DNA of 64,000 nucleotides from Citrobacter enshiensis (lineage in GTDB: Bacteria; Pseudomonadota; Gammaproteobacteria; Enterobacterales; Enterobacteriaceae), in NCBI RefSeq assembly GCF_029338175.1, contig NZ_CP119862.1, forward strand, positions 2,852,001 to 2,916,000. Direction: 5' to 3'. Each line of letters starts with the position of its first letter. The first letter of the stretch is position 1. Made by a program: the position numbers and the translations under genes. Below the pieces are notes generated by a model. That model made no database searches. It had not been told where the DNA came from and worked only from the letters and a program-made list of their open reading frames with translations. Positions 14,947-29,069 of this stretch are shown in pieces.

Positions 14947-14975
14947 AAAAAGAGACGGAATACGGTTCCCGCATT
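14947..14975. repeat. Left island boundary: degenerate copy of SdsR 3' end
   Basis: This 29-base stretch matches 25 of 29 positions of 29041-29069, the 3' terminator end of the complete sdsR gene. Both copies begin AAAAAGAGAC. The region 14820-15180 otherwise holds no gene, only AT-rich sequence and a TTAAAAACA...TGTTTTTAA-type hairpin near 15025-15055. I read the repeat as the left attachment-type scar of an insertion at the sdsR/ryeA locus. Confidence 0.65.
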
Positions 14976-15136
14976 GTCCTGAATTTTATTTTTTCTTTAT
15001 AATTCGTATAAATAAAAGATTCTTAAAAACAACCGATCTACGTTGTGTTTTTAAAGCCTGCGGTTACAGCTGAAACATCAACGGATTGCGAGGCCTTTTC
15101 AGTCAGGTTTTAGGCTGAAGAATAATATTTCCAAGT

Positions 15137-15166
15137 ACCCATTCAAGTTTTGTCTCCTGAATGGGT
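15137..15166 (-). terminator. Hairpin downstream of the SDR gene
   Basis: Perfect 9-bp stem ACCCATTCA/TGAATGGGT with a 12-base loop, 18 bp past the stop of the minus-strand SDR gene. There is no clear T-run, so termination is inferred. Confidence 0.45.
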
Positions 15167-15183
15167 AAAGCGACTTACTGCGA

Positions 15184-15861
15184 CTACCAGCTTAACGGCG
15201 TTGAGGTGTAGTCCACGAAATGATGTCCCCCCTTCCCTTGATAACTTTCCAGAACGTTAGCCAGCCCCTTAACGCTTTCTTCAACCGTAAGCGGTGCCTG
15301 CGCGCCACCCATATCAGTCTGCACCCAGCCCGGATGCAGTGACAGAAGCGTCAGACCACGAGAATCTGTCTCCGGTAACAAGGCGCGTGTCAGCATGTTC
15401 AGGGCGGATTTACTTGCCGAGTAGAGAGGCATATCAGCCTGCGTGTTTTCGTTCAGGCTGGCAAGCTTTGAACTGGTGAAGGCCAGGATCCCTGTTCCCG
15501 GCTTAACGGCATCAAGCACTAAATTTGCTAACCTGATAGGCGAGAACGTATTGGTCATAAACAAGGACAAGAGCTCTTCTGGCGTCGCGGAACTGGCTGA
15601 CTGACGCTCCGGACCCTGCACGCCAGCATTAATCAGAATGACATCGTATTGCCCTGGCTGCAGCAACTGACCGAAAGCAGTGCTTTGCTGCACATCATTA
15701 ATATCGAGAGTCAGCCACGTAATTGCTGGATACATCTCTGCTCCAACAGACTGCCTGCGCGTTGCAGAGACTGCCCATCCCCGATGATGCAACTCCTGAC
15801 TCAGACCAAGCCCGATCCCCCGAGATGCGCCAATGATGAGTGCCTGATGTTGCTTACTCAT
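15184..15861 (-). CDS. Short-chain dehydrogenase/reductase (SDR)
   Basis: 225-residue cytoplasmic NAD(P)-dependent oxidoreductase of the classical SDR fold. The cofactor motif is GASRGIG (residues 11-17), the NAG motif is at 78-80, and the catalytic Tyr/Lys pair is Y147-SAS-K151 with Ser at 130/131. The GGAGG site before the ATG fixes the start. It resembles the small CsgA/YciK-like SDRs; the substrate cannot be told. It is the first gene of the island, alone on its strand with a hairpin behind it. Confidence 0.85.
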   Translation of the reverse strand: MSKQHQALIIGASRGIGLGLSQELHHRGWAVSATRRQSVGAEMYPAITWLTLDINDVQQSTAFGQLLQPGQYDVILINAGVQGPERQSASSATPEELLSLFMTNTFSPIRLANLVLDAVKPGTGILAFTSSKLASLNENTQADMPLYSASKSALNMLTRALLPETDSRGLTLLSLHPGWVQTDMGGAQAPLTVEESVKGLANVLESYQGKGGHHFVDYTSTPLSW

Positions 15862-15962
15862 ATTTCCTCCGTTTGAGTATGGTCGGATTGTGCCTGGTAG
15901 CAGAACCCAGCAGCAGCGACCGGATCTTCCTACATCCTGATATCAGTATTCCCATGAGCCCC

Positions 15963-15990
15963 AGACTGAAGACTGAAGACTGAAGACTGA
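15963..15990. repeat. Four perfect tandem copies of AGACTGA
   Basis: A 7-bp unit repeated four times without mismatch, in the region upstream of the SDR gene. It could vary in copy number by slippage, and it lies about 100 bp upstream of the SDR start. Confidence 0.9.
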
Positions 15991-16200
15991 ATACGAAACG
16001 TTAAGATATTACTGATGTATTAAACATAAGGAACGTTCAATTTGTGCTGAAATTATTTTTTCTGTGAAGGGCGAATTTATTTACGGCTGAGGGGACGAGC
16101 ACAGCGGCCAAACTCTCCGGCCCGGATAAAAACAGGCGTACAATAGCCGTTGGCAAGTATTATTGTTGCCTTTGCGAAAAGTGAAACAATACACACGCCG

Positions 16201-16503
16201 TCAATTCATTTTTAACCAAAATGATTCCTGGCAAACGTTATGAAATTGCTTTTTCATTGGTCTGATATCCTGTCCAGCCGCATCTGTGACTTCCCAACAG
16301 ATCCAACATTCAGGACAAACATGAGCGGAGCTTTGCATTGCTTCAAGTTCATTGGTGTAGCTGATTATCACACCACTCTCATGAAGCCATACCTTAGAGA
16401 TAGTCTCAACTTCTGCTAAATCATCTTTTTCCCTGCTCTCTTGAATGCAATTTACTTTCTTTCCATTTTTAATAGCATTCACATAATACCTTAAGTCGAT
16501 CAT
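16201..16503 (-). CDS. Hypothetical protein, cysteine-containing
   Basis: Open frame of 100 codons on the minus strand (ATG at 16503; a GTG one codon upstream is also possible). The protein is soluble and mixed in charge, with a CPECWIC cluster at about residues 68-74 and further cysteines at about 20 and 92. This could be a metal site, though only one clear CxxC is present. The ribosome binding site is weak. Base composition is more AT-rich than the backbone. I do not recognise the family. The flanks, 15991-16200 and 16504-16820, show no other gene. Confidence 0.4.
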   Translation of the reverse strand: MIDLRYYVNAIKNGKKVNCIQESREKDDLAEVETISKVWLHESGVIISYTNELEAMQSSAHVCPECWICWEVTDAAGQDIRPMKKQFHNVCQESFWLKMN

Positions 16504-16823
16504 CACCGGGTTCGTCGCAAAAAATAACTGTGGTAAGAATATATTATCCTATTGCTTCTCCCACAGCATCACAGATGTAACAAAATACGGTCTACCACAC
16601 ACCGTCAACCTTTGGTATAGATCCGGTATACACACCAGACAACTTTCCCTCATTGAACTCACAACCAGAAGCTGACATTAGATATATCGAAGTTTGATAA
16701 AGAATAAAACGCCTGGCAGTATACACCGCATATTAAGCGGTGCGGGCGACGTGCAAGTCTTCGGTGACAGCAAGAAAGCAACGGAGGTATTGAAGCTCAA
16801 TGATACAGACGACCTTGCTCTAC

Positions 16824-17987
16824 TCATATCTGACGTGGATGAAACCGACGCCTCTTGTGCATATACGGCGCAAGACTGAGCAATCCCAGTACTGCAAGCA
16901 GCACACCTACCCACAGCGGTGATCTCAATCCATAGCCAGCGTCGATTCCCAGCCCTCCAAGCCATGCGCCCATGCCCAAACCGATATTGATGACCGAGTT
17001 ATGCACGGTATTGACCATCGGCCCAGGTTGGGCTGCCCTCATCACGCGTGCCACCATTGCAGGGTTCATCGTAACACCGACCAAACCAACCGCCAGCGCC
17101 ATGGCAACACTGACAATGGGGATATGCGCCAGCAGCGCAAAGACAACCAGCGCAGCCGTTAAAAGTGACAAACCCCAGGCCATGACAGGAAATGTGTGCT
17201 TGTCCGCATAGCGTCCGACTACAGCATTGCCCACGATGTTGGCAACGCCGTAGCTGCCGAGCAGCCAGGGGATCATCGCGGCAGAGAAGCCGGACACTTC
17301 AGTCAGGATGGGGGTGAAATAGCTGAAGGCTGCAAAGGTGGCGCCGACAATCAGCGCACTGGTGGCATAGGCTGCCCACAGGTTCCTGCTCCTGAACTCG
17401 CGCAACTCGGCCCCCAGGCTGATGGCGGTGGATGATGGGGAGCGAGGAACCAGCCCCCCGATGACCAGCGCGCACATCACGGTCAGGATTGCCACTAGCC
17501 AGAAGCTGGCGCGCCAGCCCATGTGCTGGTCAATCAATGTGGCCACAGGCACACCCAGCGCTGCCGCCAGCATCAAACCGCCCAGCACGATGGACGCTGC
17601 CCGTCCGCGCATATCCTCAGCCACAGTATCGGCGCAGATCGACAGCGCTGCGCCAAAGCACGCCGATGCAGTCACACCTGTGAAGAAGCGTGCCACGGTC
17701 ATGACGGCATAGCTGTCGGTCACGGCAGCGACCGATTGCGCCACCGCATACAGACCCAGCAGCAGCAATAAGGCCGTCTTGTTCGGCATGCGTAGTCGCA
17801 GCAGGCCAGCCGTCAGCAGTGGGCCACCCACCACCATGCCAAGCGCATACACGGAAATCAGGTAACCAACCTGCGTAACCGACACATCAAAGGCAATGGT
17901 CAGCGACGGCATCATGCCAGCGACCATGAACTCGGAGGTGGTCAACGAAAAAATCGTCAATCCAAGGATGTAGATGACTAGTGGCAT
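16824..17987 (-). CDS. MFS efflux transporter, DHA1/AraJ type
   Basis: 387-residue twelve-helix major facilitator protein resembling AraJ/YdhP-type drug or sugar efflux pumps (SEFMVAGMMPSL in helix 1, GPLLTAGLLRLRMPNK in loop 2-3). I choose the ATG at 17987 because it has a GGAG site eight bases upstream; the ATG at 17999 has none. The last residues (HKRRRFHPRQI) are basic and may read into foreign junction DNA. It lies behind a tetR gene on the same strand with a terminator hairpin and operator-like palindrome between them. Substrate unknown. Confidence 0.85.
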   Translation of the reverse strand: MPLVIYILGLTIFSLTTSEFMVAGMMPSLTIAFDVSVTQVGYLISVYALGMVVGGPLLTAGLLRLRMPNKTALLLLLGLYAVAQSVAAVTDSYAVMTVARFFTGVTASACFGAALSICADTVAEDMRGRAASIVLGGLMLAAALGVPVATLIDQHMGWRASFWLVAILTVMCALVIGGLVPRSPSSTAISLGAELREFRSRNLWAAYATSALIVGATFAAFSYFTPILTEVSGFSAAMIPWLLGSYGVANIVGNAVVGRYADKHTFPVMAWGLSLLTAALVVFALLAHIPIVSVAMALAVGLVGVTMNPAMVARVMRAAQPGPMVNTVHNSVINIGLGMGAWLGGLGIDAGYGLRSPLWVGVLLAVLGLLSLAPYMHKRRRFHPRQI

Positions 17988-18014
17988 GCAGAACTCCATT
18001 TTTTAACGTTCATT

Positions 18015-18048
18015 CCAATATTGGTTAAAATAAAAGGCCAAAAGGCCT
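18015..18048 (-). promoter_or_regulatory. Operator-like palindrome (and tetR terminator hairpin) before the MFS gene
   Basis: The perfect palindrome CCAATATTGG (18015-18024) lies 28 bp upstream of the MFS start. Its AATATTGGTT core recurs upstream of tetR at 18727-18736, as expected for one repressor acting on both promoters. The hairpin AGGCC-AAAA-GGCCT (18035-18048), T-rich behind it on the minus strand, probably ends the tetR transcript. Confidence 0.6.
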
Positions 18049-18069
18049 CTGTGAGTATTCGCCGCCTGC

Positions 18070-18651
18070 TTAGAGCCTGGCCAGCGTACCCTTTATCACA
18101 TCTTCAAGAAACTCGCGATCCGGCATGGACTGGCCCAGCACACGCAGGCCGTAATAGCTGCTTAGAAAGGCTCGCGCCAACTCCAATGCTGAGGACTCTG
18201 AGGACACTTCGCCATTGCGCTGTCCAACGGTAAACAGATGGCACAACACCTGCTCCAGTTTGATCACATACACACGACTGATCTCGGCAATGACCGGATC
18301 TTTGCCAGCACGGTCGAGCACGGCAAACAGAGCCATACAGCCCCGACCTCTGTTTGGTCCCAAATCGTCCTCGATGCCCCAGCGCATCAGAGCAAGCAAA
18401 CGCTCTTTGACGGAACCGGGAGCATTGAGGATGTCCGCTTGCGCCTGAAGGCCTTGATCCTGGTAACGGCGCAAGGCTATCTCATAGAGCTTCTGCTTGT
18501 TGCCAAAAGCATTGTAGAGGCTGCCGCGCCCCAGGCCCGTTCGTTCACACAGCACCTCAGCGGAAGCACCGTCGTAACCGTTCGACCAAAACACGTCCAT
18601 CGCCGCCTTGATAACTGCGCTGTCGTCGAATTTTCTAGGTCTTCCGCTCAT
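18070..18651 (-). CDS. TetR-family transcriptional repressor
   Basis: 193-residue TetR/AcrR-type regulator. The DNA-binding domain is at residues 1-55: RPRKFDD, then the helix-turn-helix SAEVLCERTGLGRGSLYNAFGNK (about 30-52). The C-terminal ligand domain contains RGCMALFAVLDRAGKDP. It lies directly upstream of the MFS gene on the same strand and probably controls it and itself through the shared AATATTGGTT sites. Confidence 0.88.
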   Translation of the reverse strand: MSGRPRKFDDSAVIKAAMDVFWSNGYDGASAEVLCERTGLGRGSLYNAFGNKQKLYEIALRRYQDQGLQAQADILNAPGSVKERLLALMRWGIEDDLGPNRGRGCMALFAVLDRAGKDPVIAEISRVYVIKLEQVLCHLFTVGQRNGEVSSESSALELARAFLSSYYGLRVLGQSMPDREFLEDVIKGTLARL

Positions 18652-19120
18652 AAGAATGTCGAAATAATTGAATGCCAGTGAGTTGTGTATTTGGCATAAA
18701 CATATCCATATTTTAACGACTGGTCAAATATTGGTTTACCTAATGAATGCTTTGCCCACGCTACTGCCCGATTTCCCAAGACACACTGCCACGGCACAAA
18801 GCTGGCCCTTGTTGAATTCTTTAGCACTGCCAGGTTTCCCATTCACGATACACCTCAATGGCTGACTATAGGCCAGACGTGCGTGCCGGGTTGAAAGGTG
18901 CTGCACATCCTTAGTTTTTTTGTCTGCTTCTCGCTCGTAGCAGTCCGATGATGGCTCTATGGTTGGTTTCGTGCCAAAAACGAAGACGACCAACATCATG
19001 GTGTGTTAATCAATGAGGAATTGGTCAAAGATCGTCTGTTTGTTGTCCTTTTCGTTCGACTTTGCAAAGATGTATCGCACACGATTTACTCGCGCGAACA
19101 AACAGCAGAGGAACGATGCC
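18652..19120. other. Intergenic region, tetR promoter with operator half-site; otherwise no gene seen
   Basis: This 469-bp stretch holds the tetR control region, with TCAAATATTGGTTT at 18724-18737 repeating the core seen before the MFS gene. Open frames of up to 87 codons occur on the minus strand (18736-18999), but they lack a ribosome binding site and match nothing I recognise. A GAGGAACG ribosome binding site at its right end belongs to the broken ohr gene. Confidence 0.5.
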
Positions 19121-19298
19121 ATGAAGACCCTCTACCAAACTCAAGACACCACCACCGTTGGCATCACCCTCGCCGTAAAGCTTGAAGTCACGATTCCGGA
19201 CCTGCCAGGCGCAGGATTTACTCGCCATGACCCACGCCGTGTGCCCCAGCAGCAACGCACTTCGTGGCAATGTCGTCGTCGAACTGGTTCTGCTCTGA
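19121..19298 (+). pseudogene. Broken organic hydroperoxide resistance gene (Ohr/OsmC family)
   Basis: A start codon with a good ribosome binding site opens MKTLYQTQ and TTVG, the N-terminus typical of Ohr. It then runs directly into ALAVKLEVTIPDLP-like sequence (read TLAVKLEVTIPDLP). After a one-base frame change comes AQDLLAMTHAVCPSSNALRGN and a VELVLL end. Ohr proteins are about 140 residues; here the central part with the first catalytic cysteine is missing (about 80 residues) and the rest is frameshifted. The second catalytic cysteine motif (VCPxSNAxRGN) survives. It sits 10 bp upstream of an intact glutathione peroxidase gene, so an ohr-gpx peroxide-defence pair was probably acquired and half lost. 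Confidence 0.75.
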
Positions 19299-19308
19299 GG
19301 ATTCCGAT

Positions 19309-19791
19309 ATGACCACCTTTCATCAACTGACTGCCACCAGCCTGCGTGGCCAGCTCATCTCTATGGCCGACTACGCGGGTAAACTGGTTCTGGTGGTTAA
19401 TACCGCCAGCCATTGTGGCTTCACGCCACAATACGCAGGCCTTGAAGCGCTCTACAAGAAGTACGCCGCCCAGGGGCTGGTGGTACTTTGTTTCCCCTGC
19501 AACCAGTTCGGTAAGCAGGAACCCGGCGGCGCCGACGAAATCGCGCAGACCTGTCACATCAACTACGGTGTGAGCTTCCCGATGTTCGAGAAAGTGGAGG
19601 TCAACGGCGCCGCTGCGCACCCGGTGTTTCGTTATCTGAAAGAAGAATTGCCCGGCGTGCTGGGTGGGCGGATCAACTGGAACTTCACTAAGTTCCTGAT
19701 CGGACGCGACGGCAAACCGATCAGGCGTTTTGCACCGTTCACCACCCCAGAGAAAATGGAAGCCGCAATCCTTGCTGCACTTAAAATCTAA
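19309..19791 (+). CDS. Glutathione-peroxidase-family thiol peroxidase
   Basis: 160-residue peroxidase of the GPx fold. The start at 19309 (MTTFHQLTA) follows a GAGG site; the frame is open 15 codons upstream. The catalytic tetrad is visible: C36 (NTASHCGFTPQ; Cys, not selenocysteine), Q66 in FPCNQFG, and W124-N125 (INWNFTKF). C82 could be the resolving cysteine for thioredoxin-type recycling. It is distinct from the usual BtuE (183 residues) of E. coli. Its upstream neighbour is the broken ohr, which suggests a hydroperoxide-detoxification role. Confidence 0.88.
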   Translation: MTTFHQLTATSLRGQLISMADYAGKLVLVVNTASHCGFTPQYAGLEALYKKYAAQGLVVLCFPCNQFGKQEPGGADEIAQTCHINYGVSFPMFEKVEVNGAAAHPVFRYLKEELPGVLGGRINWNFTKFLIGRDGKPIRRFAPFTTPEKMEAAILAALKI

Positions 19792-20037
19792 GTGATCCTG
19801 TAATCCGAGCCATTCCCTTTTAGAGAGCACTGATGATATCCGTGCGAGGTCAATTTCCGCTCTTCGCTGTGAGTTCAATCGATGGATGCAACACGCTGGT
19901 TAAACCGCTTCGTGCCACATGCGGTCCTTAATCAGATGCTTCACAATGAATGGGTAACCGATTGATTGTTTTAACAGAGCGCACGGACTGATGTTATATT
20001 GTAACGCTCTGCCCCTGAAAATATATAAGGAGTGAAC

Positions 20038-20253
20038 GTGCAGCCAGGAATGAAGGAAAAAATCATCAGAACGTGTGAAGCAAAAATTGCTTCTAAGGGC
20101 AGCAATGTAGGGCTTTCATTCTATGCCTTTTTTGCCAATAAAAATGATGATCCTGAACTGCTGATGGAGGTTGCGCATTGGTGGATTATGGAGATGAAAC
20201 TAGATCACTTTGAAAAGGCAGAAAGGATAAAATCCCTCGTTTTAGCCATGTAG
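20038..20253 (+). CDS. Small conserved-looking soluble protein of unknown function
   Basis: 71 codons from a GTG at 20038. The AAGGAG site at 20027-20032 lies five bases before this GTG and overlaps the alternative GTG at 20032, so it decides the start. The product (MQPGMKEKIIRT...) is a charged, helical, soluble protein with an aromatic core (SFYAFFANKNDDPELL, HWWIMEMKLDHFEKA). It looks like a DUF-type small protein, but I cannot name the family safely. The region 19792-20037 upstream carries only a possible promoter. Confidence 0.6.
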   Translation: MQPGMKEKIIRTCEAKIASKGSNVGLSFYAFFANKNDDPELLMEVAHWWIMEMKLDHFEKAERIKSLVLAM

Positions 20254-20740
20254 CGTGTCTGTGGCTATAGGTTCTTCTGAAGCAATGGGTTTAGCAGAGG
20301 ACTGACTTAACCCGGTTACTGACCTGACGGATGTAATGAGTGTCCGCTCCTCGCTCTAAACAGACATAGCTAATCTCAAGATTGGCTATGAATTCGTATC
20401 ATCAGTTACTGGAAAGCGTTGAGATGACTAAATCGCTTATCTTCAAATCGCTACACTTTTGCCTACCTGTGTTTTCCGCCAGCCAATGGATTTAACGTAT
20501 TCATTCAGTGGCGTACTTTGTTCTGAACCCATGTCAGCAGACCTCCATTTACGTGTTGTATCCCATAGCCGAACACACCTCTGATTTCTTCATGCAGAGC
20601 AGCCTCAGACAGATGAGTGATCCGGTGCTGATTCTGTTTACGACCACAGTCAACAAACGCCTCATTAAATACCCTTCAAACCATCAGGGTTTGTGAAATC
20701 CGCCATAATTAGTAGGGATATTCAAAGGTAGGAGACAATC
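20254..20740. other. 487-bp region without a recognisable gene
   Basis: Only short open frames without ribosome binding sites are present, the longest 62 codons at 20508-20696. No repeat, IS end or known motif was seen. The last bases contain the ribosome binding site (AGGAGA) of the following oxidoreductase gene. Confidence 0.5.
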
Positions 20741-22126
20741 ATGAAGGAGTTACTAAAGCTAAATATCGACGAGTTCAAAACTCACTTCCTGGGGGAGGTG
20801 ATTCTTCCTGACGATGCAGGCTACGACGAGGTGCGCCAGATCTGGAACGCCATGATCGACCGCAAACCCGCGCTGATCGCCCGCTGCACGTCGCCTGAGG
20901 ATGTCGTCCAGGCCATAGAATTTGGACGAACGCAAAATCTCCTCATTTCGATCCGAGGAGGTGGACACAATATCGCGGGCAATGCCGTGTGCGACGACGG
21001 CCTAATGATCGACCTCTCGCTGATGAAGAAAGTGCAAGTGGACCTTGCAACCAACAGGGCTAGCGTTGAACCTGGCTGCACCCTTGGCGATTTTGATAAG
21101 GTGGTGCAGGCACATGGCCTTGCCACGCCACTGGGCATCAACTCGACCACAGGTGTGGCCGGCCTGACGCTCGGCGGCGGGTTCGGCTGGCTGAGTCGCA
21201 AGTACGGTATGACAATAGACAATCTGCTCTCCGCGGAGGTCGTTACGGCAGATGGCAGCCAACTGCACGCCAGCGAATCAGAAAACTCGGATCTCTTTTG
21301 GGGGTTGCGGGGTGGAGGTGGCAACTTCGGTGTTGTTACTTGCTTCGAATTCCAACTCCATCCCGTCGGGCCGAATGTATTGAGTGGACTCATCGTGTTT
21401 CCGTTTGATCAGGCAAAGCCCGTTATCTCGCAGTTCGCCCAATTCACCGAGACGATGCCGGAAGAGCTCAATGTTTGGATGGTAACGCGCAAGGCGCCTC
21501 CGCTACCTTTCCTGCCCGAGGACGTTCACGGGAAAGAGATGGTCGCGCTCGCGCTGTGCTATGTGGGCGACCCTAAAGAGGGCGAGAAGCTTATTGAGCC
21601 ATTACGCGGGTTTGGTACGGTGCTCGGCGAGCACATCGGAGTGCAGCCCTATATCGCCTGGCAGCAGGCATTCGACCCGCTATTGTCAAAAGGGGCGCGC
21701 AACTACTGGAAGTCGCACAACTTTTCGCAACTCAGTGAGGGGGTTATCGATGCCATCATCGAATACGCCGCCAGGTTGCCGTCACCCCAGTGTGAGATAT
21801 TCATCGGGACAATTGGAGGCCAGACGGCCAACGTCTCGCCCGAAGCAATGGCCTACTCAAGTCGGGATGCCAACTACGTGATGAATGTGCACGGTCGCTG
21901 GGAGTCAGCCACAGAGGATGAGCACTGCATTACCTGGGCGCGCGAATTCTTCGCTAAATCACAACCGTTTGCCAGCAGCGGTGCATACATCAACTTCCTC
22001 ACCCAGGAGGAGACTGACCGCATCGCCTTCGCTTACGGTGCGACCTGGAATCGACTAGTGGAGCTCAAGAAAAAGTACGACCCGACGAACCTCTTCCGGA
22101 TGAATCAGAACATCAAGCCGGAATGA
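20741..22126 (+). CDS. FAD-linked oxidoreductase of the berberine-bridge-enzyme type
   Basis: 461-residue flavoprotein with a PCMH-type FAD-binding domain (about 40-215) and a C-terminal BBE segment (KYDPTNLFRMNQNI). The covalent FAD attachment His is H76 in RGGGHN. The second, cysteinyl link found in many family members is absent: TTGVAGLTLGGGFGW has no Cys. It is therefore probably mono-covalent. Such enzymes oxidise sugars, alcohols or secondary metabolites; the substrate is unknown. GC content and codon use differ from both neighbours, and an attC-like hairpin follows 12 bp after the stop. Confidence 0.87.
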   Translation: MKELLKLNIDEFKTHFLGEVILPDDAGYDEVRQIWNAMIDRKPALIARCTSPEDVVQAIEFGRTQNLLISIRGGGHNIAGNAVCDDGLMIDLSLMKKVQVDLATNRASVEPGCTLGDFDKVVQAHGLATPLGINSTTGVAGLTLGGGFGWLSRKYGMTIDNLLSAEVVTADGSQLHASESENSDLFWGLRGGGGNFGVVTCFEFQLHPVGPNVLSGLIVFPFDQAKPVISQFAQFTETMPEELNVWMVTRKAPPLPFLPEDVHGKEMVALALCYVGDPKEGEKLIEPLRGFGTVLGEHIGVQPYIAWQQAFDPLLSKGARNYWKSHNFSQLSEGVIDAIIEYAARLPSPQCEIFIGTIGGQTANVSPEAMAYSSRDANYVMNVHGRWESATEDEHCITWAREFFAKSQPFASSGAYINFLTQEETDRIAFAYGATWNRLVELKKKYDPTNLFRMNQNIKPE

Positions 22127-22199: not shown

Positions 22200-22700
22200 A
22201 GTAACGACGCGCATTTATTGGCCACGCAGTTGCCAGTCGACACCTATTTTGGGGTTGAGATGGATATCGACGTGATCCTCATTTCGAACAGCAATTTTGT
22301 CTGCACTGTTCGCTCTTAGCCGACTGCCAGTGTCATGCGTTTGCCCGCTCCGTGCCAGAAGCGGACGTCGTAGAGGCCTCTAATGATAACTATTACTTTC
22401 TCTTTTGCCGTTTTTATCTTTTAACGTGTGCTGAAAATCCCTTTCACTGTTTAAGAGCATAACTGTGTACTTTAAGCAGAATTCATCCGCGCGATTTTGG
22501 GCGGGGTAAGTCGGGGACTTCATCGTCTTCGGGGTAAAGCGGTGCTGAGGGGCGCAGAAGCGGTGCGGTGAACTGGTGTTATGTTAAATATGTGTGATTG
22601 TCATACTACAACGGGACGTAATGGTAAATGACTGGCTTAATATCCGTTTAAAGTTTTACTCGTCTGAGTCGATAAAAAAAGGATTAACAGAAACTGTAAG
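22200..22700. other. 500-bp region without a gene; left copy of a direct repeat
   Basis: No coding frame with a ribosome binding site was found. 22560-22586 begins GCGGTGCGGTGAAC and is repeated in similar form at 23317-23345, on the other side of the lipoprotein gene. The right part is AT-rich and should hold the lipoprotein promoter. Confidence 0.5.
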
Positions 22701-22709
22701 GTGATGCGC

Positions 22710-23243
22710 ATGTATGGAAAGCTGGTCGTTACGGGAATAATGGTAACCTTGTTGAGTGGATGTACGGCGGGGTTTAGGCCTTCGCTGGAAGACTATAAAG
22801 GTTCAGATGCTGCTCGGGTTCGTGCTCCATCTAATGGCAATACCGCTCTGCAATTTTACGAAAAACAGATAAGTGGTTGTTATAAAAAAGTTTTAGAGCG
22901 TCGGATTACGACTGGTCTGGCTATTATCGGTATTCCTGTCACAGGAAATAAAAAAATTGGAATGCCAGAGTCACCTAACAACATGGGCGTTTTCATCAAT
23001 GAATTTACTCTCAAGCCGGGGCAACTGGTGACGGTAATTCATTATTGGACCCAGGCTGGGTACTCTCAAAATACAGACCAGTCTGTCTCCGCAAGATTCA
23101 TTCCTCAGCCAAATCATGATTACGATATCGTCGTTACTGGCTCAGAATTTTCCGGAGATAAGGTATCGGTAAAAGATCTGGATCCAGGCGCTAAGATAGT
23201 GGAATGGGAAGGCAAGTACTGCCCGTCCAGTGTTTTCGATTAA
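22710..23243 (+). CDS. Predicted lipoprotein of unknown function
   Basis: 177-residue protein with a lipoprotein signal peptide: MYGKLVVTGIMVTLLSGC, lipobox LLSGC, Cys at residue 18. The TAAGGTG site places the start at ATG 22710; GTG 22701 and ATG 22704 overlap that site. The mature part has two further cysteines (ISGCYKK and GKYCPSS) that could form a disulfide, and beta-rich sequence. No Asp at +2, so outer-membrane sorting is likely. I do not recognise the family. A terminator follows, and a direct repeat flanks the gene. Confidence 0.75.
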   Translation: MYGKLVVTGIMVTLLSGCTAGFRPSLEDYKGSDAARVRAPSNGNTALQFYEKQISGCYKKVLERRITTGLAIIGIPVTGNKKIGMPESPNNMGVFINEFTLKPGQLVTVIHYWTQAGYSQNTDQSVSARFIPQPNHDYDIVVTGSEFSGDKVSVKDLDPGAKIVEWEGKYCPSSVFD

Positions 23244-23314: not shown

Positions 23315-23316
23315 AT

Positions 23317-23345
23317 GCGGTGCGGTGAACGGATGCTATGGTTAA
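23317..23345 (+). repeat. Right copy of direct repeat flanking the lipoprotein gene
   Basis: It begins with the same 14 bases, GCGGTGCGGTGAAC, as 22560-22573, then continues with about 80 percent identity for another 12-15 bases. The copies are 757 bp apart in the same orientation, with the lipoprotein gene between them. Confidence 0.7.
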
Positions 23346-23479
23346 TCGATTTGAAATCTGAACGGTTTAACTCAACTCAGGATGCCTCGCAGTTCTTCAT
23401 GTCTTCATTATGATCTGGCAACCTTCATTCAGGCCGGTAGTGGACTGACCCCGCCCCGGTAGACAATCCTGCCCCATAG

Positions 23480-23575
23480 CTGAAACTGTTTCCTGGTGAC
23501 CACGATCCACGTACGCCGATGAGGGAAAATACCATCAATAAGGCGCTGCACACGATGGCCTTAGCGCTCTGTAAG
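23480..23575 (+). pseudogene. Fragment of a P4-type tyrosine integrase
   Basis: The reading frame gives LKLFPGDHDPRTP followed by MRENTINKALHTMAL. This is the piece of P4/CP4-family integrases that normally reads like LFPGxxDPRKPMSENTINKALRxMGY and lies before the HGFR active-site motif. A TAG stop lies immediately upstream in frame, and the homology ends after about 32 codons, so only a scar remains. The 87-codon open frame starting at 23519 is this scar plus unrelated sequence and is not a gene. It points to an integrative-element origin of the island. Confidence 0.65.
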
Positions 23576-23803
23576 CAGTGCAGCGGCAACGTTAATAGTC
23601 GGTGTTTTTGCCTGGATTATCACTTTTGTTTCTCTTGTCTTATGTATTATTGCTGCGGTTCAATATTGAGAATAAAAAACAAAAGAACCAGAAGAAATTT
23701 TGGAAATAATTTATCCACAATGTTAACCATTGATGAAATTAAAGTAACATCTCGTAAAATTGGAGTTTTTCATTTCTCATAGACGAGAATTTACATATCA
23801 TGA

Positions 23804-23841
23804 TATAATGTGACAGAAAAACACGCAGGTTATTAACCTGC
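23804..23841 (+). promoter_or_regulatory. Extended -10 promoter and leader hairpin of the yeeN-like gene
   Basis: TGATATAAT (23801-23809) is an extended -10. Its transcript would begin shortly before the perfect hairpin GCAGGTT-ATT-AACCTGC (23825-23841), which lies in the leader. Codon 1 follows after GAGGAG (about 23863-23868). Confidence 0.5.
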
Positions 23842-23877
23842 TAGTAATGTAAATAAATTTTTGAGGAGACTATTCCA

Positions 23878-24594
23878 GTGGGACGTAAATGGGCCAATAT
23901 TGTTGCTAAAAAAACGGCTAAAGACGGTGCAACGTCTAACGTATATGCAAAATTCGGTGTAGAAATCTATGCCGCTGCTAAACAAGGTGAACCAGATCCA
24001 GAATCAAACTCATCTTTAAAATTCGTTATTGAACGAGCGAAACAAGCACAAGTTCCAAAGCACGTTATTGATAAAGCAATTGATAAAGCCAAAGGTGGCG
24101 GAGATGAAACGTTCGTGCCAGGCCGTTATGAAGGCTTTGGACCAAATGGTTCAATGATTATCGCTGAAACATTGACTTCAAATGTTAACCGTACGATTGC
24201 TAATGTCCGCTCAATTTTCAATAAAAAAGGCGGGAATATCGGTGCGGCAGGTTCTGTCAGCTATATGTTTGACAATACTGGAGTGATTGTATTTAAAGGA
24301 ACAGACCCTGATCATATTTTTGAAATTTTGCTTGATGCTGAAATTGAGGTTCGTGATGTAACCGAAGATGAAGGAAACATCGTTATTTATACTGAACCTA
24401 CAGACCTTCACAAAGGAATTGCAGCTCTAAAAGCAGCTGGAATTACTGAATTCTCAACAACAGAATTAGAAATGATTGCACAATCAGAAATTGAACTTTC
24501 ACCAGAAGATTTAGAAATCTTTGAAGGACTTGTTGATGCCCTTGAAGATGACGATGATGTTCAAAAAGTATATCATAACGTTGCAAATCTCTAA
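23878..24594 (+). CDS. yeeN: YebC/PmpR-family protein of the YeeN (Gram-positive-like) branch
   Basis: 238-residue protein of the YebC/TACO1 family, whose members act as DNA-binding regulators or help ribosomes through proline stretches. The GTG start (read [17 protein letters not shown]) follows a GAGGAG site. Family motifs visible: [41 protein letters not shown] and SVSYMFD. It is clearly AT-richer than the backbone, with many AAA, ATT and GAA codons. In sequence it resembles the streptococcal/lactococcal and E. coli YeeN branch rather than enterobacterial YebC. I infer horizontal transfer from a Firmicute-like source. Confidence 0.85.
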
Positions 24595-24607
24595 TTATAA
24601 ATTAAAG

Positions 24608-24634
24608 AAATCTGTCATTATGGCAGATTTTTTA
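24608..24634 (+). terminator. Terminator after the yeeN-like gene
   Basis: AAATCTG...CAGATTT stem followed by TTTT, 13 bp after the stop codon. Confidence 0.8.
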
Positions 24635-24676
24635 ACTTATAAATTTGTATAAAAAAAGCATATCTAGCCAAATATA

Positions 24677-24872
24677 TTGATTATAAAAAATAGATAAAAA
24701 CTACTATCACCCAAAAGAAATCACATTAATTGAAATTCCTGGTCTTAACTATCTGGTGATAGACGGCAAAGGAGCACCTGCAAGTTCAGTTTTTCAAAAG
24801 GCGATTCAATGTTTATATGCGACGGCTTATATGATTTCATATGCCTTACCGAAGTCCATATTTTTCAATTGA
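24677..24872 (+). pseudogene. Truncated GyrI-like (small-molecule-binding) domain gene
   Basis: After small frame changes, the translation reads DYKK, then IDKNYYHPKEITLIEIPG, then LNYLVIDGKGAP and FQKAIQCLYATAYMISYALPKS. This is the N-terminus of Gram-positive GyrI-like proteins of about 200 residues (pattern DYKK...P..I..IP...FL.IDGKG.P). There is no ATG, because the expected start reads TTG and is out of frame. The homology stops after about 60 residues where IS3 debris begins. It is AT-rich like the preceding yeeN-like gene, so both were probably acquired together. Confidence 0.6.
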
Positions 24873-24878
24873 AAATTT

Positions 24879-24941
24879 AATGATATTCTGCGTCAGGCTT
24901 CAGCGTACTTTGCGCTGACGGAGGTCGACCGCCATGGTAAG
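24879..24941 (+). mobile_element. IS3-family OrfA 3'-end fragment
   Basis: The frame gives NDILRQASAYFALTEVDRHGK. This resembles the C-terminus of IS3-family OrfA proteins (pattern NEILRxASAYFAxAELDR). Only about 21 codons are left, with no inverted repeats. It abuts an OrfB fragment in the opposite orientation. Confidence 0.5.
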
Positions 24942-25064
24942 TATCAAATCACGTTGTTTCAGTAGTGCTTTATCCTCTCCACGATGGCGTTGCCCCAGTG
25001 TCACATAGCATATCGCACTGCGCCGATGCTCTTCGTTATACTGTAAGTATCCCAGCAAAGCGAA
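24942..25064 (-). mobile_element. IS3-family OrfB (integrase) C-terminal fragment
   Basis: The minus-strand frame reads LQYNEEHRRSAICYVT, then GQRHRGEDKALLKQRD. This matches the end of IS3-family integrases (pattern YNxEHRHSAIxYVTPxQRHxGEDxALLxxR). The catalytic DDE residues are absent, so it is inert debris. From here to 25247 nothing else was recognised; about 180 bp is empty. Confidence 0.6.
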
Positions 25065-25247
25065 CCATTATCTTTCAGAGATCTTCAGGCCTGCGGATTA
25101 GTTTACCTTTAAAGCGAACTTCTGCTTCTCGCTCATAACCGACGTCATGCCCCGAGCCTGCCAGATATAGTCATTTGTTTACACCAAAAGTGTGTAATTC
25201 ATTAATAAGCATACGCCTCTGTTGAGGTGATCATATTTACTATGCCA

Positions 25248-26159
25248 CTACAACCAGTTATACCGAGTGCAATGATCGCGCAAGAGATCGAGAAAACGGC
25301 GAGCAGTGTTGGTGAGGGGCGATTTTTGTGAATAGAGAACGCAATATTGTGCCTGCGGCAGGTTGTCGATCGGCAATATTGCCAGTTGTTGTTGAAACCA
25401 GATGGAACGCACCATCGCTCTGGCAACCACCACCAGATACCCCGTCTCCAGTACCATATTCATGCCGCTAATAAATGAGTCAGTATGTACTGCAGGAGTG
25501 ATCAGATGCTGATAAAGTTCACTCCATTCCAACTGTACCTGTTGGTAATACCCCATATCCGTTTTTGGCAATATCCATTTCGCCTCTGTCAACTCAGCGA
25601 ATGTAGAAGACCGGGACAGCGGATTATCTTTGTGAGAAATAATGCAAAATTCGGCGCTAAACAGTGGCTCACAGATTAAATCATCTAACGGCAATTCCGG
25701 ACAGACGGTACCGACAGCAAAGTCCAGTCGCCCTTCCCGCAACGCAGGCAGCAGCGTAGAGAGTTGTGCTTCATGAATGAATACATTGGATTGCGAAAAG
25801 GATTGGCGAAACGCATCTACAAGCGCCGGTAAGACAGTGAGGGAAAGTAATGAGGAGCAACCAATAGCTACACTGCCTTGCTTAAGTTGATCGAGTTGCT
25901 GAATTTCATGAGCGGCGCGCTGGAGCTCTTCAAGAATCAACTGCATACGATGCGAAAAGGCCCGCCCCGTTTCGGTCAGCGTCATTCCATTGCTGCTGCG
26001 AATGATTAACTGGGTTTGCAGTACCTGTTCCAGTTCCCGAATGGTGCGACTCACCGCCGGTTGCGATTGCCCAAGCGCCCGCGCAGCCCCTCGAATGCTG
26101 CCACTACGAATCACCTGCTGAAAGACCTTCAACTGCTGAATCTTGGGTAAGTAGCGCAT
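25248..26159 (-). CDS. LysR-family regulator, TdcA-like
   Basis: 303-residue LysR-type transcriptional regulator. The N-terminal helix-turn-helix is at about residues 18-45 (SGSIRGAARALGQSQPAVSRTI). The effector domain shares EAQLS..LPALR.GRLDFAVGT and LPKTDMGYY with TdcA, the threonine-degradation regulator. It is divergent from an MFS/M20 pair with 184 bp between, the usual position of a LysR activator for its target operon. The inducer is unknown. Confidence 0.85.
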   Translation of the reverse strand: MRYLPKIQQLKVFQQVIRSGSIRGAARALGQSQPAVSRTIRELEQVLQTQLIIRSSNGMTLTETGRAFSHRMQLILEELQRAAHEIQQLDQLKQGSVAIGCSSLLSLTVLPALVDAFRQSFSQSNVFIHEAQLSTLLPALREGRLDFAVGTVCPELPLDDLICEPLFSAEFCIISHKDNPLSRSSTFAELTEAKWILPKTDMGYYQQVQLEWSELYQHLITPAVHTDSFISGMNMVLETGYLVVVARAMVRSIWFQQQLAILPIDNLPQAQYCVLYSQKSPLTNTARRFLDLLRDHCTRYNWL

Positions 26160-26267
26160 CCTGTGCCCTATCAGAAAAAAACATCACCGATTAAAAATTA
26201 GTATCTTATGCCCCTTCAATAAAGTCGATAATTTCAATGGCGCAAGCACTTATATACAACATCATAA

Positions 26268-26283
26268 AGTGACTCAAGTCACA
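26268..26283 (+). promoter_or_regulatory. CRP-cAMP binding site candidate
   Basis: AGTGA-CTCAAG-TCACA matches the TGTGA-N6-TCACA consensus at nine of ten positions. It lies 61 bp upstream of the MFS start, between the divergent lysR and MFS genes. It suggests catabolite control of the module. Confidence 0.6.
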
Positions 26284-26343
26284 CAAAATACACGCCACCC
26301 TATTCATTGGTTTTCCGGGTGATAATTAAAAGGAATACATCCG

Positions 26344-27549
26344 ATGAAAAATCGTTCGTTGATGGTTTTTTTGCTGTTTATGGGTTACGCCGTGGTTTAT
26401 CTCGATAAGACGCTTATCGGCTTTGCACTGCTACCTATAGAAAAAGAGTTTCACTTACTGCCTGAACAACTCGGTTATATCACCGGGATGTTTTTCCTCG
26501 CCTATTCGTTGTTTCAGGTTCCCGCTGGTTGGTTAAACGATCGTATCGGTTTTAAGAAAGTCCTCTGCTGTTCTTTGTTATTGCTGGGCGGATTTGCTCT
26601 GTGCTTTGGCTTACTGGGCTTCAGTCTGGGCCTGTTGGTCACTTTTCGTTTTCTTTCCGGTATGGGGCACTCAGGGTATCCAACGGCTTGCGCCAAAGCG
26701 GTGGTCGCCAATTTTCCTCTCGAACAGCGTACGTTTACCCAATCTATTCTGCTCTCCTCTGCCGGACTGGCGATGACCGTCGGGCCGCTGATCGCCGTCT
26801 ATTTACTGGCGCATCTTGGCTGGCGGGGCTCATTTTCTGGGCTCGGTTTGATCGCCTTCGCCATCATGATAGCCGTCTTGTTGCTGGTGCCAAATCCGCC
26901 TAAAACAGCAGACGAAAAATCCGTGGCAGCAGCGGTGAGTTATAAGGCCTTGTTGAAAAACCCTATCGTGATCCTGCTGTTTATCTCGATTTTTTGTATC
27001 AACATCCCTGCTTATGGTCTGTTGGCCTGGTTACCAAAATTCCTCGTGCAGCAACGAGGGATGCCAATGGGTACCTCCAGCCTGGTCGTTGCAGCGGGTG
27101 GCCTTGGAATCTGGATTTCCTCACTCGGTAGCGGCTGGCTGGTCGGGCGCTATCTGCAAGGACGTGAGCCCCTGTTTGTCTGTTGCAGTTCGCTGCTCAG
27201 CGCATTGTGCATCTGGTTGGTATTTATCAGTCAATCCGCGCTGGTTTCCAGTGTGTTCCTGTTTATTGGTTATATCTTCCTGATGGGTTCATTTGTCACC
27301 GTCTTCACGCTGCCAATGAAACGCCTGCAGACCGAAGTCATAGGCGCGGGTATGGGCATGATAAACACCGGGGGAACACTCGGGGGCTTTATCGCGCCTA
27401 TTGCTATCGGCTATTTAGTTACCCTCAGCGGTAATTACACGACGACCTTTATCTTTTTAGCCATGGCTATGGTGGTTTCCGGGTTAATTGTTTTACCGCT
27501 GGCGGGCAAATCACGTCACCAACTCTCACCTGAAGGAATCAGAAAATGA
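26344..27549 (+). CDS. MFS transporter, anion:cation symporter type
   Basis: 401-residue major facilitator protein with twelve predicted helices. The helix 1-2 region (GYAVVYLDKTLIGFALLPIEKEF) and the loop 2-3 motif (PAGWLNDRIGFKKVL) resemble the ACS family, which imports organic anions such as glucarate, phthalate or amino-acid conjugates. Its stop overlaps the start of the amidohydrolase gene (ATGA), so the two are co-translated. Role inferred: uptake of the substrate that the amidohydrolase cleaves. Confidence 0.87.
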   Translation: MKNRSLMVFLLFMGYAVVYLDKTLIGFALLPIEKEFHLLPEQLGYITGMFFLAYSLFQVPAGWLNDRIGFKKVLCCSLLLLGGFALCFGLLGFSLGLLVTFRFLSGMGHSGYPTACAKAVVANFPLEQRTFTQSILLSSAGLAMTVGPLIAVYLLAHLGWRGSFSGLGLIAFAIMIAVLLLVPNPPKTADEKSVAAAVSYKALLKNPIVILLFISIFCINIPAYGLLAWLPKFLVQQRGMPMGTSSLVVAAGGLGIWISSLGSGWLVGRYLQGREPLFVCCSSLLSALCIWLVFISQSALVSSVFLFIGYIFLMGSFVTVFTLPMKRLQTEVIGAGMGMINTGGTLGGFIAPIAIGYLVTLSGNYTTTFIFLAMAMVVSGLIVLPLAGKSRHQLSPEGIRK

Positions 27550-28718
27550 ATGCTGAACAACTCATCGCTGACGTGGAACAGGAAGTCCTGACATGGCGTC
27601 GTCATCTCCACGCCAACCCGGAATTGTCGTTTCAGGAGCATAAAACGGCCGACTATATCGTGGAGCAGCTTACAAGCTTTGGCGGGCTTAAAATCAGCCG
27701 TCCGACAGCAACGAGCGTGATCGCGTATCTGCAGGGCGTTACTGCAGGTCCATGCTATGCATTACGTGCGGATATCGATGCCCTGCCATTGCAGGAAAAA
27801 AATGACGAGCCGTTCTGCTCGACGAATCCTGGGGTGATGCACGCCTGTGGTCATGATGCCCACACGGCGATGCTGCTGGGTGCCGCGCGTGTGTTGTGTC
27901 AGATGCAGGAGCAATTAAAGGGGTCTGTCTGTTTTATCTTCCAGCATGCGGAAGAATTGCCGCCGGGCGGCGCACAAGAGCTGGTTGATCTCGGGTATCT
28001 TGACGATGTGAGTATGATCTTCGGACTGCATGTTTTCCCGACGGTCCCAACCGGGATCGTCAACATGAAGCAGGGGATTTTCAGCGCCGCTTGTGACAAC
28101 TTCGACATCGTGATTCAGGGCAAAGGCGGCCACGGCTCGACACCGCAGTACTGCATCGATCCTATTATGATTGGCGCTGAAGTTGCCACGTCATTACAGA
28201 ATATCGTATCGCGTAAAATCGATCCGCTCACGGTGCCGGTGTTGAGCATCACCACTTTCCAGGCCGGGGCCAGCTATAACGTGATCCCCGATAGCGCTCG
28301 TCTGGCGGGGACACTGCGTACGCATAACCGTGAGGTTCGTGAGAAAGTACCACAACTGGTGGAACAGACCGTCGCAGGTATCTGCCAGGCCCATGGAGCC
28401 AGCCACAAAATTAGCTGGACACGGGGTTTTTCCAGCGGCGATAACCATCCGGATGCGTGTGCTATCGCCCGCCAGGTGGTGGCTGACGCGTTGGGACCAG
28501 AGGCTCTGGAGGAGGTTGATACCCCACTGTTTGGCGGGGAAGATTTTTCGTCATATCAGGAGAAACGGCCTGGTTGCTTTCTGTTTATCGGCTGCGGTAA
28601 TGACGCTATTGGCGCTACCCATGGCCTGCACAACCCCTACTTTAAACTGGATGAGGATGCCTTGCAGGTGGGTGTGAAACTGCATGTAGGCTTTATTCGT
28701 CAGCTATTAATGCGTTAA
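27546..28718 (+). CDS. M20D amidohydrolase (N-acyl amino acid/aminoacylase type)
   Basis: 390-residue cytoplasmic metallohydrolase of the M20D group (hippurate hydrolase, IAA-amino acid hydrolase, AbgA/B-like). Metal ligands: C and H in MHACGHDAHT (about 97-106), the acidic pair HAEELPPGG, H in FGLHVFP, and H in THGLHNPYF near the end. The dimerisation lid domain starts around GKGGHGSTPQ. It is coupled to an importer and a LysR gene, so the module probably takes up and hydrolyses an N-acylated or peptide-like compound. Exact substrate unknown. Confidence 0.87.
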   Translation: MNAEQLIADVEQEVLTWRRHLHANPELSFQEHKTADYIVEQLTSFGGLKISRPTATSVIAYLQGVTAGPCYALRADIDALPLQEKNDEPFCSTNPGVMHACGHDAHTAMLLGAARVLCQMQEQLKGSVCFIFQHAEELPPGGAQELVDLGYLDDVSMIFGLHVFPTVPTGIVNMKQGIFSAACDNFDIVIQGKGGHGSTPQYCIDPIMIGAEVATSLQNIVSRKIDPLTVPVLSITTFQAGASYNVIPDSARLAGTLRTHNREVREKVPQLVEQTVAGICQAHGASHKISWTRGFSSGDNHPDACAIARQVVADALGPEALEEVDTPLFGGEDFSSYQEKRPGCFLFIGCGNDAIGATHGLHNPYFKLDEDALQVGVKLHVGFIRQLLMR

Positions 28719-29040
28719 TCCATAAGATCTGGCCCATCAGGCATTTTTGTTGCGGCCAGTTTCAACACGTCTCATACCATGACTGGCCGGGAGCATGTAG
28801 AAGAAAGAATTCGGGAAGGATTTTGCACAAAAACGGCTGGGGCATAAGGCGGAAAAAATGACAGAGAAGTACCCGGGCAGCAAAAAAAAGAGTAGGTGAT
28901 GATCTGATTTTTTTCGGCGTAAATGAATTGTTAATGTTAATGTCGGGTGGTATAACGGGGAAAGACCGGATATTGAAATTCGGGAAAATTTCGGGGCTTT
29001 TCGGACATGATGTCTTAACTGCCTGAAATTAAAGACAGAT

Positions 29041-29069
29041 AAAAAGAGACCGAATACGATTCCTGTATT
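29041..29069. repeat. Right island boundary: native SdsR 3' end (repeat partner of 14947)
   Basis: 25 of 29 bases are identical to 14947-14975. This copy is part of the complete sdsR terminator stem. The region 28719-29040 between the amidohydrolase stop and this point contains no gene; an imperfect CTGGCC/GGCCAG hairpin at 28731-28761 may end the operon. Confidence 0.65.

Follow-up and report, generated by a model that had tools for sequence, protein, structure and literature searches.

The small RNA (sRNA) SdsR, also called RyeB, is abundant in stationary-phase enteric bacteria, and we know of no explanation for the origin of its antisense partner, RyeA. The closest described system is the ryeA/ryeB locus of Salmonella enterica, an insertion hot spot used by phage PhiW104 (Balbontin et al. 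2008, as summarized in the pertinent section of the review PMC7380047); that section places the insertion at the last bases of ryeB, between pphA and sdsR, with duplication of the SdsR 3' end and exchange of the 5' part of ryeA, and states that PhiW104 lysogeny lowers ryeA transcription and raises that of ryeB. The same integration site is used outside Salmonella by a Cronobacter prophage at the 'SraC/RyeA RNA' (PMC3680222) and by a prophage named Cfr111.52.RyeB (PMC10111431); both are entries in prophage lists, and the portions of these papers that hold the lists describe no island with such content and analyze neither a scar nor a promoter. In Escherichia coli K-12, transcription from the sdsR promoter continues into pphA, and the RyeA start was mapped by primer extension and rapid amplification of cDNA ends, with sigma-70 transcription in vitro (relevant sections of PMC6610125). 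Here we analyze a 64,000-nucleotide stretch of Citrobacter enshiensis DNA (contig NZ_CP119862.1, positions 2,852,001 to 2,916,000; hereafter the window), in which about 14 kb lie between pphA and sdsR. Our reading, to which we give a probability of roughly 85%, is that an element of the second of two integrase classes described below inserted at the SdsR terminator, detached the old ryeA promoter, supplied a promoter-like element instead and eroded to a scar, and that the scar of an older, class-1 insertion lies at pphA.

The window encodes the same RNAs as K-12, with yebY beyond sdsR (Table 1; pphA and yebY were named by likeness to the K-12 gene order, and pphA also from a search for relatives). 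In the K-12 locus used for comparison, pphA, ryeA/sdsR and yebY are adjacent; coordinates and gene order thus agree with the original prediction that about 14 kb of unrelated genes split pphA from sdsR here, and its description of the island as a mosaic fits a GC content that ranges from 0.36 to 0.60 among 1-kb windows across the stretch. The predicted degenerate copy of the SdsR end at the pphA side was also recovered: the two 29-base copies differ at 4 positions, a pattern covering both with up to 3 mismatches finds exactly two sites in the 64 kb and none in 100 shuffled sequences, and a search from the intact copy with up to 6 mismatches finds the same two sites alone between 14 and 30 kb. 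A chance repeat was rejected on the zero shuffle matches, and a tRNA-targeted island because no tRNA or tmRNA was detected in the window. A 41-nucleotide piece with the intact copy is predicted to fold into a strong stem (-15.8 kcal/mol), and the degenerate copy into a weaker one (-9.4 kcal/mol). A promoter-like sequence, TTGTCC-18-TATAAT (14974-15003, plus strand; 2 such sites against 0.7 expected), begins within the degenerate copy and points into the island.

Relatives of PphA marked the corresponding locus in other genomes; 80 of 87 such loci were kept, and a full SdsR falls inside the fetched stretch in 62 of them. Ten of these 62 have the SdsR end no more than 250 bp from the pphA match, and the gap is 0.84-9.4 kb in the other 52. 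Eight of the 10 short-gap genomes (L080 and L092 were left out) and K-12 were checked for a second copy, and in each the 29-mer occurs once when up to 6 mismatches are allowed (Citrobacter L035, L036, L037 and L040; Escherichia L044, L045, L047 and L109). Alleles with a single repeat copy, which the original prediction had proposed to look for, thus exist in both genera. The single SdsR 3' end in these eight genomes lies 120-149 bp from the pphA match, and the degenerate copy in the window about 130 bp from pphA. Two of the 18 loci without a full SdsR belong to genus relatives of the window, and the remaining 16 genomes were searched throughout: 9 have a second short copy, which in 8 is on the same contig as SdsR, at distances of 8.7, 26, 40, 45, 48, 49, 65 and 147 kb. 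The longest of these intervals, in Leclercia adecarboxylata NCTC13032 (G074, locus L107), possibly holds several elements in tandem. Among E. coli genomes (5426 in total, 5375 matched), 80% or more of the K-12 locus is covered at a single place in 5141; two of the 234 exceptional genomes were opened and have, respectively, a prophage and an insertion sequence element. In E. coli 05_3471, xis and int adjoin SdsR and the match to the locus breaks at the SdsR 3' end. Copies also occur far from sdsR: at about 6655-6805 of L238 (G024) a 30-base SdsR 3'-end copy next to a class-1 scar shares its contig with sdsR at a distance of about 850 kb, an arrangement that would arise if a rearrangement had parted two borders, and at about 8413-8702 of L240 (G005) another SdsR 3'-end-like copy, which has an integrase-end match, is some 1.4 Mb away from sdsR.

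A search of viral contigs with the SdsR 3'-end pattern returned at least 120 stretches, and in 111 of the 120 listed an integrase end lies beside the core (the shared SdsR 3' end) and is oriented towards SdsR. We divided the listed matches by the distance from integrase stop codon to core into class 1 (less than 100 bp, n = 75) and class 2 (more, n = 36); among the non-redundant sequences of this set the distance is 79-91 bp for class 1 (n = 38) and 125-142 bp for class 2 (n = 21). Nearly all of the 40 viral stretches printed (from L112-L231, IMG/VR) extend 547-569 bp past the core into host DNA. Since the viral contigs run past the core in this way, and one of them (L223) carries pphA, contig borders here are not element borders. 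A query of a phage collection with the sRNA locus gave 3 matches, of which PP818812 and OK490361 carry a core copy and an SdsR-type integrase. The integrase of 05_3471, class 2 by distance, has domains PF00589, PF22022 and PF09003; its alignment with HK022 Int spans 347 residues at 41% identity and reaches residue 355 of 358. SdsR-site integrases thus resemble the lambda/HK022 family in having arm-binding, central and catalytic domains; they differ from it in that their core is an sRNA terminator and that the 3' end of the gene contains, or is closely followed by, a conserved promoter-like element.

Beside the intact sdsR of the window lies the decayed 3' end of such an integrase. Representatives of all eight integrase clusters built from the listed viral open reading frames (ORFs) match the window from 28783 in tblastn searches; the best, L114, is 75% identical over 36 amino acids (28783-28890, with one internal stop; expectation value (E) of 5e-11 against the 64-kb window), and the other seven have E = 0.0002-0.007. 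A DNA profile of the 21 class-2 ends matches 28781-29039 through profile positions 56-314 (E = 1.1e-50 in a 2.2-Mb set, in which some stretches from the same genomes overlap). The same relic is present in the two genus relatives, G059 (Citrobacter sp. R56, NZ_CP069159.1, the same species according to the kinship table; E = 3.1e-37) and G001 (Citrobacter sp. Awk 4, the same genus; E = 1e-38). The relic has the position and direction of int in an intact prophage, which marks it as the stump of an SdsR-site integrase; an integrase next to the intact sdsR and reading towards it is thus present as a decayed relic. No intact integrase is found in the island, where just the last 36-40 or so codons remain, with an internal stop. 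Single-copy alleles, duplicated SdsR end and integrase relic all agree with the original prediction of an insertion at the SdsR 3'-end hot spot.

The short interval between pphA and SdsR in the single-copy genomes is itself homologous to integrase coding ends. In Citrobacter it resembles a broken class-1 integrase end when printed side by side with the phages, and the class-1 phage profile (38 sequences) matches Citrobacter L037, L036, L035 and L040 at E = 7.7e-7 to 1.9e-5, Escherichia L044, L109, L045 and L047 at 0.021-0.31, and K-12 at 0.19, all in the 2.2-Mb set. The corresponding DNA of the window, beside pphA, matches the same profile at E = 0.022 (13.4 bits; best of 1000 shuffles, 4.5), and a profile of the Citrobacter single-copy genomes matches window positions 14824-14920 at E = 7.4e-14. 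Each of 12 host sequences (12 of 12) outscores all 1000 of its dinucleotide shuffles, from K-12 (10.5 bits against 0.5 for the best shuffle) to the weakest, R56 (5.2 against 3.3). In the reverse test we built profiles from host genomes only: 4 Escherichia, 4 Citrobacter and 13 of an Enterobacter group, the last including L068, L085, L098 and L101, which the phage profiles had missed and which were added since the sequences looked alike. Each host profile matches the integrase side of the core in 79 of the 120 viral loci listed, with best E-values of 4e-6 (Escherichia), 2.9e-10 (Citrobacter) and 5.5e-6 (Enterobacter group) in 1.1 Mb, and with 5, 7 and 6 matches elsewhere, respectively; the strongest match elsewhere is in L223, the viral contig that reaches host DNA with pphA, and is that host's own scar. 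The three host sets also find one another's members (for example, the Enterobacter-group profile finds K-12 at E = 5.4e-5). Across the 62 loci with full SdsR, 57 have a class-1 or class-2 match on the expected strand within 350 bp of SdsR at E of 10 or less, 44 of them at 0.001 or less; at the former threshold the phage profiles find no integrase end in L068, L081, L085, L098 and L101, nor in any of the seven more distant loci L021-L027, the latter a weak negative since sensitivity drops with distance. Phage profiles, shuffles and reverse host profiles together rule out that the short-gap genomes are pristine sites. As judged by sequence comparison, these analyses show the DNA beside SdsR in K-12, other Escherichia, Citrobacter and the Enterobacter group to be a fossil SdsR-site integrase end.

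This fossil includes the K-12 ryeA promoter. The phage-profile match in K-12 (1495-1560 of L252; profile positions 116-180, the last 22 codons of the integrase) contains the hexamer TATGGT (L252 1554-1559, record 1923053-1923058), and RyeA is annotated from 1567. Changing the ryeA -10 element to CTCGAG made RyeA undetectable (promoter-mutant section of PMC6610125), and our comparison of the primers in that paper with K-12 DNA shows that the bases replaced by CTCGAG are TATGGT; the K-12 -10 element falls in the part of the host interval that is homologous to integrase coding ends. In 35 of the 38 non-redundant class-1 phages listed, TATGGT itself occurs within the last three sense codons of int, at a constant distance to the stop. 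Class-2 genes stop earlier, and all 21 non-redundant class-2 sequences listed have TGnTATAA in non-coding DNA 39-49 bases beyond the stop. The nine-base window of this element is the most conserved of the class-2 arm among nine diverged arms (1.90 of a possible 2 bits, against an arm mean of 1.20). Next come the AAATTTCGG repeats (1.80), which we take for putative integrase arm sites, and then AAATGTTAA (1.73); 17 bases separate the TGTTAA of the latter from the TATAAC downstream of it (counted by eye in L113).

A TGnTAT element is also kept in the hosts. It occurs 35-110 nucleotides from the SdsR end, and always at 54-94, in 60 of the 62 named loci (the misses are L081 and L100), as against 5.2 expected by shuffling, 4 on the opposite strand, and 5, 1, 3 and 7 at four control offsets; this positional test was devised after the promoter-score outputs had been seen, and the loci are related, so that the 60 are not independent events. 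The element lies near the core in 117 of the 120 viral arms listed. It is present in 1 of 8 loci with a diverged SdsR (L020-L027), and the exact motif is missing in two (L012 and L019) of four loci nearer than these outgroups, although L012 has an integrase-end match. In the window the candidate replacement promoter (Table 1) is not significant in the single-sequence score, and the consensus scan does not list it, because that scan requires T at the last position. Single-sequence -10 scores are in general no better than those of shuffles (2 of 53 at p < 0.05, and 11 of 53 on the opposite strand; the 53 are the 62 loci minus 11 with the core off-pattern, plus the window and K-12), so the case for a promoter rests on position, conservation and the K-12 experiment. 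Outside K-12 promoter activity is putative. The detached former -10 hexamer at pphA reads AATGGT in the window and in Awk 4 and AATTGT in R56; such decay is compatible with lost selection, but may mostly be one shared change. In other genomes with a displaced SdsR and an old scar at pphA, it reads, by eye, TATGGT (L041, L090, L099), TATGTT (L088) and TATGGG (L107).

The insertion is present in all three genomes of the genus set (the window's own, R56 and Awk 4), with no unoccupied allele among them. The SDR, LysR, second MFS (26344-27549) and M20 genes occupy the same place in R56 and Awk 4 at 93-98% identity, and this core was not found in the stretches fetched for the remaining 78 named loci or for the other G genomes (tblastn, E of 1e-15 or less). 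The original prediction had named the presence of the same genes in all relatives as evidence against it, and this holds for the core within the genus and not beyond it. Relatives of the M20 protein at E of 1e-100 or less occur in 18 of 149 family genomes (its own and Awk 4 counted), the best outside the genus at 76% identity. The remaining cargo varies: of the two relatives only R56 has the berberine-bridge-type oxidase and the 101-residue ORF, and neither fetched stretch has the other MFS, the TetR, peroxidase, lipoprotein-like or YebC-like genes. Instead R56 has, by eye, a different lipoprotein-like ORF, a hydrolase-like ORF and a phage remnant of 6-7 kb whose class-1 integrase 3' end adjoins SdsR (E = 5e-81), and in Awk 4 the interval from SDR to LysR is missing and other genes follow on two unjoined contigs. 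A shared core with varied extra cargo points to one ancestral insertion with turnover afterwards, most simply a single event before the two Citrobacter species diverged.

We infer the following order of events. The SdsR terminator would serve as bacterial attachment site for a group of lambda/HK022-type integrases, which would recombine it with its phage copy. The promoter fossil of K-12 would have been laid down before Escherichia, Citrobacter and Enterobacter diverged, by the older class-1 insertion, whose scar also lies between pphA and SdsR in E. coli and in single-copy Citrobacter; the K-12 copy of this scar carries the ryeA promoter. A class-2 element would then have entered in the genus ancestor, restoring the SdsR 3' end next to yebY and leaving the old end by pphA; as the 3' end of the sRNA is itself the core, such an insertion rebuilds SdsR on one side and strands the upstream part of ryeA with its promoter on the other. 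This younger element would have landed between the old promoter and ryeA, severing the former and supplying its own element. The relic integrase would have made the original insertion and brought in cargo; it and any phage genes would then have eroded to the 3'-end scar and a non-coding arm, an integrase end remaining between the next gene and SdsR, while cargo gained and lost later would have produced the 14-kb mosaic. The window would thus hold two layers, an old class-1 end beside pphA and a younger class-2 end beside SdsR, and R56 a third, with a class-1 end directly at SdsR. A probable side effect is that pphA, now 14 kb from the sdsR promoter, has been severed from the read-through seen in K-12. 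Since insertion strands the old promoter and the arm carries a similar element at a similar distance, each insertion seems to replace the ryeA promoter: SdsR-site int genes would carry an extended -10 promoter, located within the final codons in class 1 and about 40-50 bases past them in class 2, which would read across the core into the strand antisense to sdsR. We lean towards the wider proposition that the RyeA promoter is phage-derived, is a fossil integrase end in K-12 and has been replaced repeatedly by phages while the RyeA body was conserved, and we hold it with distinctly less assurance than the history of the island.

Several observations weigh against this history. In R56 no core copy (up to 3 mismatches in 25) was found to separate the inner relic from the newer phage remnant, where clean layering would leave one. 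The relic could derive from a later insertion than the one behind the pphA-side junction, and with no phage structural gene or intact integrase left, the source may have been a prophage or another integrative island. The phage-profile E-values of the older scar (0.022 in the window, 0.19 in K-12) are weak, and its weight rests on position, shuffles and reverse profiles. The carriers are three genomes of one genus and so count as one event. Finally, the lowering of ryeA by PhiW104 described in the review section cited above argues against a fully equivalent promoter replacement, at least in Salmonella.

The alternative nearest to this history is that a prophage inserted and decayed and that the metabolic cargo joined the dead remnant later by homologous recombination or transposition, the 14 kb never having been one mobile element. 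The cargo is bacterial and metabolic, the relic is the sole phage gene, and blocks vary among the three genomes, one of them with imperfect inverted repeats near its ends; the presence of the SDR, LysR, MFS and M20 core in all three is, on the other side, compatible with arrival in the original element. We regard late arrival as slightly less probable than not, and it departs from our preferred history in timing only. That the second SdsR-end copy arose by chance resemblance or by an unrelated duplication of a terminator, with the genes there for other reasons, can be virtually discounted: its 4 differences in 29 and weaker stem would suit such an origin, and they are set against the absence of shuffle matches, the location of the copy at the junction position of single-copy genomes, the integrase relic, and second copies on the same contig in 8 of the 16 displaced-SdsR genomes searched.

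The origin of the promoter admits two further explanations. Phages might have captured host promoter DNA beside their integrase gene, as the shared stretch adjoins the attachment core in phage and host alike. We consider this very improbable, since the shared part is an integrase coding end (the last 22 codons in K-12) that is broken in the hosts; alignment of this integrase type with HK022 Int nearly to the C-terminus indicates that the sequence belonged to integrases. Moreover, the int end of a prophage abuts SdsR and not the pphA side, so that imprecise excision would be expected to miss the pphA-side interval. A stronger contender is that TGnTAT in the phage arm serves the phage itself (for example, in transcription across the phage attachment site, attP) or binds a recombination protein; RyeA would then not be driven by it in lysogens, nor in scarred hosts outside Escherichia. 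The PhiW104 effects on ryeA and ryeB (PMC7380047, section cited above) and the unremarkable single-sequence scores speak for such a role, whereas the retention of the element at 54-94 nucleotides in 60 of 62 genomes and the loss of detectable RyeA on mutation of the K-12 -10 (PMC6610125, as above) speak for ryeA; we view a purely phage function as doubtful, though far less so than capture from the host.

The remaining features of the island are listed in Table 1. Scans of 12 island ORFs, 9 of them against Pfam and 10 against NCBIfam, found no phage structural or conjugation gene. The MFS, TetR, peroxidase and DUF6500 genes form a block within 16612-20342, a stretch without a match in R56, near whose ends lies a 28-nucleotide inverted repeat (16652-16679 and 19852-19879, 79% complementary); the block looks as if it had perhaps arrived as a single unit, and the repeat could be chance. 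A 52-nucleotide direct repeat (17982-18033 and 18692-18743, 71% identical) with a AATATTGGTT motif in each copy brackets tetR and possibly represents putative regulator sites, and 30-nucleotide direct repeats (22560-22589 and 23317-23346, 83% identical) flank the lipoprotein-like ORF. A DUF6500 gene 79% identical to that of the window lies between a core copy and pphA in L067 (5216-5419; a Pluralibacter metagenome-assembled genome), and this gene is possibly cargo common to separate insertions at the SdsR site.

Table 1. Features of the SdsR-site island and its flanks, in window positions.
Feature	Position	Strand	Evidence or remark
pphA, left chromosomal flank	14133..14819	-	PF00149; relative search; K-12 gene order
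Older scar: class-1 SdsR-site integrase 3'-end fossil, orthologous to pphA-SdsR interval of single-copy genomes	14821..14892	+	
Putative remains of former ryeA -10 hexamer AATGGT (TATGGT in K-12), severed from ryeA	14879..14884	+	alignment, position
Degenerate SdsR 3'-end copy, old attachment-site junction	14947..14975	+	25/29 identical; weaker stem
SDR family oxidoreductase, genus-wide island core	15184..15861	-	NF006035 above cut-off; in G059 and G001
101-amino-acid ORF, also in G059	16201..16506	-	no Pfam/NCBIfam match
MFS transporter	16824..17999	-	PF07690; nearest NCBIfam models all below own cut-offs
TetR-type regulator	18070..18651	-	PF00440
Glutathione peroxidase family protein	19264..19791	+	PF00255
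DUF6500 protein	20032..20253	+	PF20110
FAD-binding (berberine-bridge type) oxidoreductase, also in G059	20741..22126	+	PF01565, PF08031
Lipoprotein-like ORF, named by eye from N-terminus	22701..23243	+	no Pfam/NCBIfam match
YebC/TACO1-family protein	23878..24594	+	PF01709, PF20772
LysR-type regulator, genus-wide island core	25248..26159	-	NCBIfam LysR models, below equivalog cut-offs
MFS transporter, genus-wide island core	26344..27549	+	TIGR00893 and others, below cut-off
M20-type amidohydrolase, genus-wide island core	27546..28718	+	TIGR01891 above cut-off
Younger scar: decayed class-2 SdsR-site integrase 3' end	28781..28907 (end approximate)	+	tblastn; DNA profile
Candidate replacement ryeA promoter TTGTTA-17-TATAAC, TG one base before second hexamer	28928..28956	+	85 nt from SdsR
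RyeA body (Rfam model; excludes E. coli leader upstream of SdsR end)	29037..29181	+	RF00101, 175.8 bits
Intact attachment core = SdsR 3' end	29041..29069	+	repeat pattern search
SdsR (RyeB) sRNA	29041..29140	-	RF00111, 113.7 bits
yebY ORF, right chromosomal flank, start codon approximate	29300..29722	-	K-12 gene order

The island is a further case of a known hot spot. Like the PhiW104 insertion it lies at the last bases of ryeB between pphA and sdsR, with the SdsR 3' end duplicated and the 5' part of ryeA exchanged (PMC7380047, same section); it differs in genus and cargo, in its stump of an integrase and in being an old insertion common to two species, and the exchanged part of ryeA is traced here to integrase 3' ends, those of the 'empty' genomes included. 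Likewise, whereas K-12 has pphA beside the sdsR locus, the region upstream of ryeA in the window is the scar of a different integrase. The SdsR site is a family-wide hot spot already recorded outside Salmonella, in Cronobacter and in what we take from the letters 'Cfr' to be C. freundii. The original prediction of an independent use of the site was therefore right as to another genus and other cargo, and had been preceded, as to use outside Salmonella, by the published lists of prophages (PMC3680222, PMC10111431, in the portions cited above). The new part is the reading of an integrase scar as the ryeA promoter, which is unstated in the literature searched, a weak negative given that the 2008 Salmonella paper and most subscription papers lay outside its scope. 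If that reading is true, phage insertion would account for the existence of RyeA, and would explain both why an unconserved RyeA 5' leader stands beside a conserved body and why lysogeny alters the balance of RyeA and SdsR; the SdsR locus would then offer legible layers of successive insertions at a single site across a bacterial family.

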